From: Thalassotalea nanhaiensis | Lineage (GTDB): Bacteria > Pseudomonadota > Gammaproteobacteria > Enterobacterales > Alteromonadaceae | Reading direction: 5' to 3' | Length of the DNA stretch: 64,000 nt | Assembly (NCBI RefSeq): GCF_031583575.1 | Contig: NZ_CP134146.1 | Span: forward strand, 3,348,001-3,412,000 | In this document: positions 33,479-37,249 of the stretch, in pieces | Numbering within the stretch: position 1 is the stretch's first letter | Layout: each line of letters starts with the position of its first letter | Program-made: the position numbers and the translations under genes | Notes under the pieces: model-generated | Databases searched by the model: none | Seen by the model: only the letters and a program-made list of their open reading frames with translations | Told to the model about the DNA's origin: nothing

Positions 33479-34063
33479 ATGAATCAAATGCCAGAACAAG
33501 CTAAAGCCGACTGTAGTATTAATGCCACAGTCGGTTTTTTAATTAACACTACCAAGCTAACCATGTTACCGCTTTCAGCGGCAGACAAAACGCTATACCA
33601 ACAACTGTATTGCAACGCTGAAGTGTGCAAGCATATTGGCGGCGTAATAAGTGCTGAACAGGCACAAGTAAGTTTTGAACGCAGCATCAAACAAAACCGA
33701 ACTGGTAAACGTTTAACTTGGGTGATTAGGGATAAATACAGTCATCAACGTTTAGGTATTTGTGCCTGTGTTTGGCCAAAAGAGCCAGCTAAACAAAACC
33801 ATGATAATAACAGCCCCACCATAAATACTGACAATACGGCTGAATTAGGATTACTACTGTTACCACAGTTTTGCGGTAACGGCATTGCGGTAGATGTGCT
33901 AAATGCGTTAACCACGTATGGTTTGTCTACATTACAGTTACAGCAGTTAACGTTACATTGTGGCGCGGAAAATATTGCCATGCAAAAAGTGATGGGCAAA
34001 TTAAATGCTACCTATACAAGTAATAATGATTTAACGTATTGGACACTAGAGTCAATTAAATAA
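33479..34063 (+). CDS. GNAT-family N-acetyltransferase (RimJ/RimL-like)
   Basis: A 194-residue acetyltransferase. The first beta strand INTTKLTMLPLSAAD resembles IETERLILRPL of the RimJ/RimL group, and AELGLLLLPQFCGNGIAVDVLNAL is the acetyl-CoA region, though the R/Q-x-x-G-x-G/A loop is weak (QFCGNGIA). No internal start preserves strand 1, so the start stays at 33479 even though a terminator-like hairpin with six T lies within codons 10-21. It ends 15 bp before the borosin-type methyltransferase and may be a tailoring enzyme of that locus. That link rests on position only. Confidence 0.7.
   Translation: MNQMPEQAKADCSINATVGFLINTTKLTMLPLSAADKTLYQQLYCNAEVCKHIGGVISAEQAQVSFERSIKQNRTGKRLTWVIRDKYSHQRLGICACVWPKEPAKQNHDNNSPTINTDNTAELGLLLLPQFCGNGIAVDVLNALTTYGLSTLQLQQLTLHCGAENIAMQKVMGKLNATYTSNNDLTYWTLESIK
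33507..33540 (+). terminator. serA terminator lying inside the GNAT start
   Basis: CCGACTGT (33507-33514) pairs perfectly with ACAGTCGG (33527-33534), followed by TTTTTT. It looks like a complete intrinsic terminator about 80 bp after the serA stop, but is within the predicted first codons of the acetyltransferase gene. Confidence 0.7.
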
Positions 34064-34078
34064 AAAACAAAACTAACC

Positions 34079-34903
34079 ATGACCAACCATTCTACATTTA
34101 AAAAAGGCTCACTGGTGTGTGTCAGTACCGGTATGCAACTCGGCGCGCATATTAGCCCAATCAGCCAAAGCCATATTGAAAACGCCGACATTGTGTTTGC
34201 AGTAATGAGCGACGGCATAATGCAAAAGTGGGTAGAAGGAATGAACCCCAATGTATTTAATATGCAGCAGTTTTATCAAAAGGGTAAACCGCGCTCCGAC
34301 ACATACGAAGATATGATGCAGGCAATGCTAAGCGAGATGCGCAAAGGTAAAAACGTGGTTGGCGCCTTTTATGGCCATGCTGGTGTATTTGTTACGCCTT
34401 CACACAAAGCGATTGCCATTGCCAAAGCCGAAGGCTATTACGCCCATATGGAGCCTGGTATTTCAGCCGAAGATTGTTTATTTGCCGATTGTGGCATAAA
34501 CCCTGGCGCGTTAGGTTGTGCAAACTATGAAGCCACACAACTGGTGTTTTATAAGCGCGCAATTGATGCCAGCGCTTATTTAATTTTATGGCAAGCCAAT
34601 ATTGTAGGCGATCGAACCTTAATTAAACGCGCCACCAATAAAAAATACCGACAATTGCTGGTTGATGTATTAAGCGATTATTACCCGCTTGAGCATGAAG
34701 TTATTTTATATGAAGCGCCAACACTAGCCATTGATAAACCCAGAGTGGAGTCGATAACGCTTGGCGACTTTGTTACTGCGCCATTAAAACCCCATACAAC
34801 TTTGGTATTGCCACCATCTAAGCCCCTGCGCCGTAATGATGAAATTTTTGAAAGATATGAACAACTTGAAGCAAATGTTGCGCACCTTGTATTAGTGAAA
34901 TAA
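34079..34903 (+). CDS. Borosin-type peptide N-alpha-methyltransferase (SonM-like)
   Basis: A 274-residue SAM-dependent enzyme of the tetrapyrrole-methylase fold. It matches what I recall of SonM of Shewanella (split borosins): GSLVCV.TG.QL, ADIVF, NPNV.N.QQFY, YGH.GVF, KAEG, MEPGISAE.CL.AD.GI.PG, YPL.HEV..YEAP and LPP. The catalytic set known from fungal OphMA is present with the same spacing and even numbering: Tyr66, Arg72, Tyr76 and Tyr98. YGHAGVF has Ala for the usual Pro. Such enzymes methylate backbone amides of a partner peptide. The next gene encodes an 85-residue SonA-like peptide. Cobalamin or porphyrin methylation is unlikely because no such pathway is near. Confidence 0.85.
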   Translation: MTNHSTFKKGSLVCVSTGMQLGAHISPISQSHIENADIVFAVMSDGIMQKWVEGMNPNVFNMQQFYQKGKPRSDTYEDMMQAMLSEMRKGKNVVGAFYGHAGVFVTPSHKAIAIAKAEGYYAHMEPGISAEDCLFADCGINPGALGCANYEATQLVFYKRAIDASAYLILWQANIVGDRTLIKRATNKKYRQLLVDVLSDYYPLEHEVILYEAPTLAIDKPRVESITLGDFVTAPLKPHTTLVLPPSKPLRRNDEIFERYEQLEANVAHLVLVK

Positions 34904-35033
34904 AAGATTAATAATGAAGTGTGTGCAAGTTAATATTCATTGAATTTGGATTATTGCAGTTATCTATACACACAAAGATAGTAAAACCTTAACGACAAAA
35001 ATTTAACAAAAACAACCGTATACAAGGACTTTT

Positions 35034-35291
35034 ATGAAAAACGTAATTAAACTATTAGCCCAATTAGGGGCAGATGCCAATTTAAATGCCCATGCAGATT
35101 TAGATCAACAGGCTCGTATTAGTGCGATGATGAATGAATTAAATATTGACAAAGAGCAACAACAAGCCATTTTAGCCGGCGATGTTAGCGCCCTAAACAA
35201 GCTGCTTGATATTTGCCCTGACATTGTTTGTGATGTTAATCGACCGGATGAAGATGATGATGATGAAGAGCGGAAAATTAGCTTTGGTTAA
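35034..35291 (+). CDS. Candidate split-borosin precursor peptide (SonA-like)
   Basis: An 85-residue peptide. Residues 1 to about 58 are helical and resemble the borosin-binding leader of SonA: LLAQLGADANL at the start, AMMNELNIDKEQQQAILAGD in the middle and VSALNKLL at the end. The likely core follows: ICPDIVCDV (Cys61, Cys66 with branched residues that suit backbone methylation), then the acidic run at 72-79 and the tail KISFG. AAGGAC lies 6 nt before the ATG. A 130-bp gap separates it from the methyltransferase, so it may have its own promoter for higher expression, as precursor genes often do. The function is inferred from the partner gene and leader resemblance. Confidence 0.72.
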   Translation: MKNVIKLLAQLGADANLNAHADLDQQARISAMMNELNIDKEQQQAILAGDVSALNKLLDICPDIVCDVNRPDEDDDDEERKISFG

Positions 35292-35332: not shown

Positions 35333-37249
35333 ATGAGTATTGTTCGTCTAACCAATAAACAAGGCACTTGTCGGTTCACAAGTGCCTATTTTTTATGCTT
35401 CACTATTATGTTGTTATTGACTTTGTTACCAGTGAGCAGTTTTTCCGCGGAAAACCAAACGGTATCACCAAACAAAAACCTAGAACAAAGCAACTTACCG
35501 TTAAGTTTTGCCGACATTGATGCATTATTGGCACAAGCGCTTGAGATAAAAAGCTCAAACAAAAAAGAATCAGCACGCATCATCAAAAAATTAGCGGCAA
35601 TAGAGCCACAGTTAAGTTATCGTCAACAAGGCGAGTTAACCTATTTAACCGCTTATAACGCTTATTTAACCGGTGATAGACATAAAGCTGTGGCGCTACA
35701 TAAAGTCATGCAAGACTCAAAGTTACTTCTACATAGAGTTAGAGCAAGCAGTACCTTGTTAAACCTGTATTTAATTGAGCAAAATTATATTATGGGGGGA
35801 AAGTTAATTCCGCTACTGCTGGAAGAGACTGAAAAGGTAACTGATGCGAATTTAAAGGGTGATGTATTTGAAGTGGTTGCCTACTATTATACCGAATTAA
35901 ATCAACCTGAAATTGCCCTTACATATTTAAGCTTGGTAAATACCGAGAGCTATTTACCCCGCGATTATTGTTATTATTATAATCGTAATAGTGCGGCAAA
36001 ATTGCAACTTTATGGCTATTTAGCGGAGCAAAGCTTTATTAATAACGGTACTAAGGTATGTGAGCAAGCCGGCGAATTCCTCTCGGCGAATATTCTTATT
36101 AGTGAAATTGCACTGCACTTAATTGACCAACAAGAATACCAACTTGCACTTGATATATTATTGCCTAAATTAAGCAAAGCTGAAGCGATAAATTACAACA
36201 ACTTATCACTTAATTTTTATAGCTATATTGCCACAGCGTATTTTCATTTAAATGATTTTGACCAGGCACTGCTGTTTGCCAATAAAGCTGAAAATATCAA
36301 CATGCCAATAAAATATCACAAATCCTTCGCTTATTTGTATGCCACCTTATCTGATCTGCATTTTGAGCTTGGTAATAATGACAAGGCACTGGAGTATTTA
36401 TACGTTTACCAAGATAAATTAGCGGTGGCATTAGATGTTGAGCAGCAAAGGCAATTAGCTCGAGCACAAGCAGATCATTATGCTTACGGGAAATATAGGG
36501 TAAGAGATAAACTTATTAAAGAAACCGATCAAGCCGAAGCCAAGTACAAAGCCGCCTTCGGTATCATGATGGGTTACATCAATAAGTTTGAAAATGGTCG
36601 AATATTGTTCGCCGTGCAAGTTTTTATCATAACTATATTATGTTGCAGCATTTTAGGGCTTCGCCATTTTCAAATAACTGCTAATGAAAAAAACCGCCTT
36701 GACCCGTTAACCAAATTATTTAATCGCCAGCGCTTTGTAGATTTAGCCGCAAACACTGTTTACCTACATAAAAAGTGGACTAGTACGTTAACGTTATTAG
36801 TAATAAATATTGATAACTTTAGAGGTTTTAACCAACAACACGGCTGTGAAAAAGGCGATGAATTACTAAAACTTATTGGTCAAATTCTACATAATTACGC
36901 GTTTAGAGTTGAAGATGTCGCCCGCTCTGGTGCCGATGAGTTTAGTTTACTGTTGCAAACTACTGATGCCCAGGAAGGGATAGAAGTTGCTAAACAAATT
37001 CAAATGGAGATAGCTCAGCTTAGTGATGAACTGAAGTTAAAAGATGACATTGTAAACGTCAGTATTGGTATTAGTGACACAGTTTTGAGTGAATCTTCAT
37101 TAAAATATTTATTGTGCGACAGTTCAAGAGCATTGCGTGAAGCGAAAAAAAATGGTGGCAATAAAATATTCTGCTTTGACCGTACAATGACCGATCGTGA
37201 AAAATATAAAATTGAAGATGATGGCTTAAAGTACATTTTTGAAAAATGA
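35333..37249 (+). CDS. Membrane TPR-GGDEF protein, degenerate diguanylate cyclase (first of pair)
   Basis: A 638-residue protein: signal peptide ending near FSAEN (about residue 40), periplasmic TPR-like helices (about 50-400), one membrane helix (ILFAVQVFIITILCCSIL, about 424-441) and a cytoplasmic GGDEF domain. The signature is GADEF (533-537), and the first metal-binding Asp of DxD is Asn492 (NID). So cyclic-di-GMP synthesis may be weak or lost. The start at 35333 keeps the charged signal-peptide n-region, though a terminator-like hairpin overlaps codons 10-20; the next ATG (35408) would leave no n-region. Its stop overlaps the start of a paralogue (ATGA). Confidence 0.8.
   Translation: MSIVRLTNKQGTCRFTSAYFLCFTIMLLLTLLPVSSFSAENQTVSPNKNLEQSNLPLSFADIDALLAQALEIKSSNKKESARIIKKLAAIEPQLSYRQQGELTYLTAYNAYLTGDRHKAVALHKVMQDSKLLLHRVRASSTLLNLYLIEQNYIMGGKLIPLLLEETEKVTDANLKGDVFEVVAYYYTELNQPEIALTYLSLVNTESYLPRDYCYYYNRNSAAKLQLYGYLAEQSFINNGTKVCEQAGEFLSANILISEIALHLIDQQEYQLALDILLPKLSKAEAINYNNLSLNFYSYIATAYFHLNDFDQALLFANKAENINMPIKYHKSFAYLYATLSDLHFELGNNDKALEYLYVYQDKLAVALDVEQQRQLARAQADHYAYGKYRVRDKLIKETDQAEAKYKAAFGIMMGYINKFENGRILFAVQVFIITILCCSILGLRHFQITANEKNRLDPLTKLFNRQRFVDLAANTVYLHKKWTSTLTLLVINIDNFRGFNQQHGCEKGDELLKLIGQILHNYAFRVEDVARSGADEFSLLLQTTDAQEGIEVAKQIQMEIAQLSDELKLKDDIVNVSIGISDTVLSESSLKYLLCDSSRALREAKKNGGNKIFCFDRTMTDREKYKIEDDGLKYIFEK
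35362..35394 (+). terminator. Precursor-gene terminator inside the GGDEF start
   Basis: A perfect 10-bp stem (35362-35371 with 35378-35387), a 6-nt loop, then ATTTTTT. It is about 70 bp after the precursor stop and within the first codons of the next gene, so that gene must be read by readthrough or be limited by this hairpin. Confidence 0.75.

Follow-up and report, generated by a model that had tools for sequence, protein, structure and literature searches.

We analysed a window of 64,000 nt from Thalassotalea nanhaiensis (GCF_031583575.1, NZ_CP134146.1 positions 3,348,001–3,412,000, forward strand), in which genes for a putative split-borosin α-N-methyltransferase and its small candidate precursor peptide are followed directly by two genes whose products fuse TPR and GGDEF domains. 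The original prediction had drawn a unit of GNAT acyltransferase, methyltransferase and precursor genes; these three open reading frames (ORFs) are present at the positions it gave, with a 15-bp spacing between the first two, and they do form a unit, but its proposed end at 35291 did not hold, since the two TPR-GGDEF genes belong with it. We regard the methyltransferase and precursor as almost certainly a split borosin. That this cassette is coupled to a membrane TPR-GGDEF sensor pair by the complete mechanism described below is an evenly balanced proposition, and the part of it in which the borosin is a signal read by the neighbouring TPR sensor falls a little short of even. Comparisons are based on 105 methyltransferase places (loci and genomes are given as L and G numbers): 62 discovery places (the window, L001 and 60 regions) and 43 test places from 40 further regions, fetched once the sensor idea had arisen; the 100 regions were chosen by us out of 154 listed matches (146 plus 8 further).

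In a PDB search the methyltransferase matched SonM best (261 bits over residues 10–257, E 7e-77), in agreement with the SonM-type identity originally proposed, and it matched dbOphM/OphMA at about 162–172 bits as well as MroMA; judged by name, all 25 PDB sequences listed are SonM, OphMA/dbOphM or MroMA entries. Residues Y66, R72, Y76 and Y98 align with Y58, R67, Y71 and Y93 of SonM, and this pattern, on which the original prediction had also relied, is identical in 39/39 aligned sequences, the window's included. Mutation of these four residues in SonM impairs catalysis, the effect ranging between a roughly 2-fold drop in kcat (Y93F) and a roughly 98-fold drop in efficiency (Y71F; PMC8429565). 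A search of the T. nanhaiensis genome recovered one methyltransferase and one precursor. Relative to L074, the nearest congener found, whose methyltransferase is 91% identical, the ratio of nonsynonymous to synonymous substitution rates (dN/dS) is 0.065 for the methyltransferase; the corresponding values are 0.03 for serA, 0.25 for the GNAT gene, and 0.19 and 0.17 for sensors 1 and 2.

The precursor ORF is real and constrained, given its dN/dS of 0.107 against L074 and its intact reading frame. A single-sequence PDB search with the 85-mer did not return SonA, yielding designed repeats and chance matches only, and the SonA-like leader claimed for it was recovered by a profile instead. This profile, built from 35 candidates and iterated over small ORFs downstream of the 105 methyltransferase genes, found a precursor at 83 of the 105 places, the window among them. 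The L123 precursor matches SonA (PDB 7ltc) over residues 1–71 with 131.9 bits; because one profile joins the window peptide to the precursors of other loci, including this one, the window leader can be considered SonA-like. A low-confidence model predicts leader helices at residues 4–17, 23–35, 40–47 and 51–60, and the fold model of the precursor alone (pLDDT 56) was too poor for comparison with SonA; a two-sequence alignment with the L001 precursor (25% identity) was not used. The methylated residues of SonA are Leu63 and Ile65 (PMC8429565), and an alignment of 13 precursors sets Cys66 and Val68 of the window peptide opposite them, in a register that is tentative because linkers vary in length. 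Compared with the window, the L074 core differs by substitutions at residues 67 and 70 and by an insertion that follows the latter. Three consecutive acidic residues near the C-terminus occur in 54 of the 83 precursors; with kinship ignored, this acidic tail is found in 39/43 precursors that have a GNAT gene nearby versus 15/40 of those that do not. Separately, precursor-like ORFs with repeated core-like units were observed at L113 (near the central methyltransferase), L165.1 and L170.0; the units comprise KALIITPK repeats and two KLLLLxPT-like units, and these ORFs look like multi-core borosin precursors.

One may postulate instead that the enzyme is an ordinary cobalamin or siroheme methylase next to an unrelated small ORF, a scenario that would suit its Pfam assignment to TP_methylase (PF00590, 45 bits), a broad superfamily. 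We consider this extremely improbable given that the best PDB matches are SonM and OphMA, that the borosin active-site residues are retained, and that a precursor lies downstream of the methyltransferase in so many of the places surveyed. The profile check that had been proposed for such methylases gave no tetrapyrrole methylase family model above its cut-off in NCBIfam, the sole match being YabN at 15.9 bits (cut-off 525). Judged from sequence, the enzyme pair is of an already known type, a split borosin that is type IV-like.

The association with TPR sensors emerged from gene clustering around the 62 discovery loci, in which the TPR-GGDEF family was present in 57/62, only the methyltransferase itself being more frequent. 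With a profile of the part of the protein that precedes the inner membrane stretch, a TPR protein was seen to begin a short distance downstream at 58/62 discovery places (54 with GGDEF, 3 with a histidine kinase and 1 cut by a contig end) and at 29/43 test places; of the remaining 14 test places, 10 carry a same-strand TPR-GGDEF gene upstream, 2 represent tandem copies of the methyltransferase, and at 2 there is no such gene. Under a single rule, which counts as adjacent any match on the same strand that ends at most 900 bp before the methyltransferase and starts less than 1,700 bp after it, 98 of the 105 places have a match. The seven that fail are L089, L097, L113, L149, L157, L165.1 and L170.0; at L097 a TPR gene follows the precursor on the opposite strand, the second methyltransferase in the L113 region has a TPR gene, and L165.1 and L170.0 are tandem methyltransferase copies in which the sensor follows the other copy. 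As an internal control, the profile matches 108 of 319 genes within 1.6 kb versus 3 of 647 beyond 4 kb, and two of these three distant matches are further copies in the same array. The genome of T. nanhaiensis has 27 GGDEF matches in total, so the probability of chance adjacency is small. The gap between precursor and sensor ORFs ranges from −58 to 209 bp in 78 measured cases and is 41 bp in the window, where the two TPR-GGDEF genes overlap by 4 bases. In the order sample, the TPR profile at E 1e-40 matches 79/95 methyltransferase-positive versus 2/299 negative genomes; 25 of the 79 match by construction, as their own sequences are in the profile, and four candidates were scored per genome, such that TPR-positives may be undercounted, the methyltransferase-negative genomes included. 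We found no coupling of a borosin to a diguanylate cyclase or TPR sensor in the literature searched; an earlier report elsewhere is possible. Two irregular loci deserve mention: at L138 (+1095 to +2825 relative to the methyltransferase) two ORFs stand in place of a single TPR-GGDEF gene, either because the gene is broken or through a sequencing error, and L089 (G213) has two near-identical tandem precursors and a short ORF resembling a protease, lacks any TPR gene in the region, and may be a cassette in decay.

The architecture of the sensors suggests that their TPR domains face the periplasm. By hydropathy, TPR-GGDEF protein 1 has an N-terminal hydrophobic stretch and a membrane stretch near 419, and protein 2 has a membrane stretch near 415 and an N-terminal stretch below the threshold; together with two kept cysteines (Cys213 in 99/99 and Cys243 in 98/99 distinct aligned TPR-GGDEF proteins, window numbering), this leads us to predict a periplasmic location. 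Of these 99 relatives, 74 carry GGEEF or GGDEF as their active-site motif; protein 2 has GGDEF and protein 1 the variant GADEF, from which protein 1 may be a non-catalytic partner. Other outputs occupy the same slot elsewhere: TPR histidine kinases (e.g., L131–L133, L140, L153–L155), TPR proteins whose sole addition is a terminal membrane stretch (L143, L144), and TPR proteins in twos and threes that have no output domain (L166, L169, L171–L173). Pfam searches of nine neighbour proteins agreed with the domain assignments, giving TPR, HisKA and HATPase for L131, L140 and L153 (receivers also in L131 and L153), TPR and HATPase for L142, TPR only for L143 and L166, TPR and GGDEF for L123 and L150, and a protease for L084; the L099 kinase, of 900 aa, does not belong to the TPR proteins. 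Against the TPR profile, the TPR domains of the kinase-type proteins reach only about 42–81 bits, and common descent of the TPR part in kinase-type and GGDEF-type sensors is likely. In structure comparison, the predicted TPR model has Rap and RapF as its nearest folds, with NprR and AimR lower in the list.

We also identified a terminator-like hairpin between precursor and sensor (fold z −3.4), which recurs at the same place in L033 (z −4.7) with the reading frame kept. It is a possible attenuator after the precursor and could leave the precursor transcript more abundant than that of the sensor; terminator-like sites in the region show no excess over shuffles (6 vs 5.8), and a promoter scan was uninformative (14 sites vs 20.1 in shuffles).

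Table 1 Features of the putative split-borosin locus, in window positions.
Feature	Position	Strand	Basis or remark
GNAT-family acyltransferase, 194 aa	33479..34063	+	PF13302, 67.7 bits; candidate tailoring enzyme
SonM-type split-borosin α-N-methyltransferase, 274 aa	34079..34903	+	SonM is best PDB match; activity predicted
Precursor ORF, 85 aa	35034..35291	+	Profile linkage to SonA orthologues
Precursor leader, residues 1–57, equivalent of SonA borosin binding domain	35034..35204	+	Iterated profile
Precursor predicted core, residues 61–72	35214..35249	+	13-precursor alignment, tentative register
Precursor acidic follower, residues 73–85, ends KISFG	35250..35288	+	Acidic tail comparison
Terminator-like hairpin and T run	35362..35387	+	10-bp stem; inside first codons of TPR-GGDEF ORF 1
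TPR-GGDEF protein 1, 638 aa	35333..37249	+	PF00990, 96.7 bits; weak TPR matches
TPR-GGDEF protein 2, 625 aa	37246..39123	+	PF00990, 65.9 bits; several TPR matches below cut-off

Two further genes recur in related cassettes. The neighbourhood survey, which had been suggested as a check on the locus, placed a GNAT homologue no farther than about 1 kb from the methyltransferase in 48 of the 105 places, comprising 43/62 discovery places and 5/43 of the more divergent test places; its presence nearby in 43 of 62 discovery loci means that it is more than a chance neighbour. GNATs acylate other ribosomally synthesized and post-translationally modified peptides (RiPPs). A pepsin-like protease (PF00026) is present in 37/95 methyltransferase-positive versus 6/299 negative genomes of the order sample and is encoded near the methyltransferase gene at 22 of the 105 places, mostly directly before the GNAT gene. 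It has no match in the T. nanhaiensis genome, a meaningful negative given that the same model does match 43/394 genomes of the order. A PA[EDKR] follower motif was considered as a mark of protease-processed precursors, and no conclusion was drawn from the counts by locus (motif and protease 17, motif only 15, protease only 3, neither 48); in the motif-only loci L075–L077 it falls in the acidic tail, and some genomes carry the protease elsewhere.

The methyltransferase was found in 95/394 genomes of the order sample, 9/15 of the genus and 10/369 of the class sample, and precursor relatives were found in 51/295 genomes of the family sample; these and other genome counts, as well as the distance correlations below, ignore kinship. 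Within the genus, methyltransferase and precursor occur together in 9/15 genomes (the window's included) and TPR-GGDEF genes in 14/15, while GNAT adjoins the methyltransferase in 8 of these 9 genomes and the contig ends there in the ninth. The locus is flanked by serA and ruvX, as the original prediction had it, but the setting between these core genes is less settled than it implied, the slot being unstable across the genus. In the congener L178 the order is serA-GNAT-TPR-GGDEF-TPR-GGDEF-ruvX; neither methyltransferase nor precursor was found there, and the cassette has probably been lost in part. At L075, L076 and L077 the GNAT-methyltransferase-precursor block lies between TPR-GGDEF copies instead of ahead of them, an arrangement that differs from the window's and shows that block and sensors have been reordered within the genus. 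At L117–L119, L121 and L123–L127, which we take to be Shewanella-type loci flanked by smpB-ratA-rnfH-bamE, methyltransferase, precursor and TPR-GGDEF genes were found with neither GNAT nor protease nearby. Elsewhere in the window, 6S RNA (RF00013, 29931–30113, 95.4 bits), upstream of the 5-formyltetrahydrofolate cyclo-ligase gene, was the only known RNA element to reach the Rfam threshold.

The explanation that we favour for these observations is that the cassette produces a signal for the adjacent sensors. By homology to SonM/SonA, a methyltransferase dimer would bind the helical leader of the 85-mer and place methyl groups on backbone amides of its hydrophobic core, at about residues 61–68; the GNAT may acylate the peptide, and a host protease would free the core, the pepsin-like protease of sister cassettes not having been detected in this genome. 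The N-methylated peptide would then reach the periplasm and be bound by the TPR domain of the adjacent sensors, and this binding would change cyclic di-GMP output. Covariation is consistent with the signal-receptor step. Over 56 loci, core distances correlate at 0.64 with those of the TPR domain, 0.50 with the methyltransferase and 0.39 with GGDEF. With methyltransferase and GGDEF controlled, the TPR-core correlation is 0.47 (0/300 permutations; first run 0.438, 0/500), and the other controlled values are −0.08 for GGDEF-core, 0.22 for methyltransferase-core and 0.09 for TPR-leader. Within the acidic-tail class (38 loci) the TPR-core value is 0.23 (4/300), or 0.20 (11/300) minus close pairs, and with GNAT also controlled (35 loci) it is 0.29 versus 0.10 for GNAT-core.

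Several results weigh against this interpretation, however. Among 18 SonA-like loci GGDEF outdoes TPR for the core (0.43 vs 0.22; 28/300), and the modest TPR-core values within classes indicate that part of the covariation is a between-class difference. At E 1e-10 the TPR profile matches 94/95 methyltransferase-positive genomes and also 37/299 negative ones, and even the two exceptions at 1e-40 (G121 and G366; L176 and L177) have flanks in which no methyltransferase or precursor was found. In the genus, for which every candidate was scored, five of the six methyltransferase-negative congeners retain TPR-GGDEF between serA and ruvX (G397 has none), which could mean either that the cassette was lost with listeners left or that the sensors are older than the cassette. 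Outside the order, 6 of 8 loci are without TPR genes, and L184 and L185 have one.

An alternative to which we give roughly one chance in three is that the locus encodes a true split borosin acting elsewhere, as an antibiotic, metal or surface agent, and that TPR-GGDEF does not bind the peptide, being either a sensory module that predates the cassette's arrival next to it or a regulator of the cassette's expression. The cassette-free congeners, one of which (L178) keeps just GNAT, and the sensor-free loci outside the order fit such a scenario, as does the hairpin between precursor and sensor; yet it explains less readily why the pairing persists across different output domains and flanks, and whichever side of the methyltransferase the TPR gene lies on, or why core divergence tracks TPR divergence. 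It is improbable that the TPR domain is instead a scaffold, export or immunity factor that binds the precursor or cassette proteins: the output-less proteins in twos and threes and those with a terminal membrane stretch would suit this role, but in most loci examined the TPR part is fused to a signalling domain. If the borosin is indeed a signal read by the sensors, the congeners that retain the receptor and are without the cassette would be listeners. More broadly, we tentatively propose, with somewhat less assurance than for the window itself, an order-wide class of peptide signals in which split borosins are read by dedicated Rap/NprR-like periplasmic TPR receptors with interchangeable outputs.

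No stated function of bacterial split borosins was found in the literature searched, and through the strong genetic association with a TPR sensor the question can now be put to the test, for example in Shewanella oneidensis, whose enzyme pair SonM/SonA has already been purified and solved. Were the signal interpretation correct, it would supply a function for SonM/SonA and a Gram-negative, modified-peptide counterpart of RRNPP signalling, would connect a class of RiPPs with signalling through cyclic di-GMP and histidine kinases, and would make receptors that recognise N-methylated peptides available.

The window locus resembles several known systems without coinciding with any of them. In shewasin-type borosin cassettes, of which L084 (PF00026, 69.3 bits) is an example, the order is protease-GNAT-methyltransferase-precursor with TPR-GGDEF usually next, and shewasin A reportedly cleaves a borosin precursor; the T. 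nanhaiensis genome differs in having no PF00026 match. SonM-SonA of S. oneidensis, described as a small cluster of the split-borosin kind that most sequenced Shewanella genomes share, likewise has a separate methyltransferase and an adjacent small precursor (PMC8429565), and it shares the four active-site residues and the succession of leader and hydrophobic core; the near-SonA locus L123 (by alignment L117 and L119 too) also has a TPR-GGDEF gene adjoining the precursor. Unlike SonA, the window precursor has 85 rather than 71 aa, a core Cys and an acidic tail, and unlike SonM-SonA the window has an adjacent GNAT gene and two TPR-GGDEF genes after the precursor; the main text of PMC8429565 does not contain the terms acetyl, sonB, sonC or GNAT. 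The window sensors fuse TPR to GGDEF as does RcbB of Vibrio vulnificus, in which cyclase activity is kept down by the TPR domain until a partner protein lifts this repression, but RcbB is paired with the TPR protein RcbA (PMC12282931, in whose main text the word borosin is absent). Finally, as in the RRNPP systems (Rap, NprR, AimR), a propeptide gene adjoins a TPR receptor gene; in those systems the receptors are intracellular and have been described in Gram-positive Firmicutes and in mobile elements of these bacteria (PMC10075063), whereas TPR domains of the window type are predicted to be periplasmic and occur in fusion with GGDEF or a kinase, and N-methylation is predicted for the peptide.
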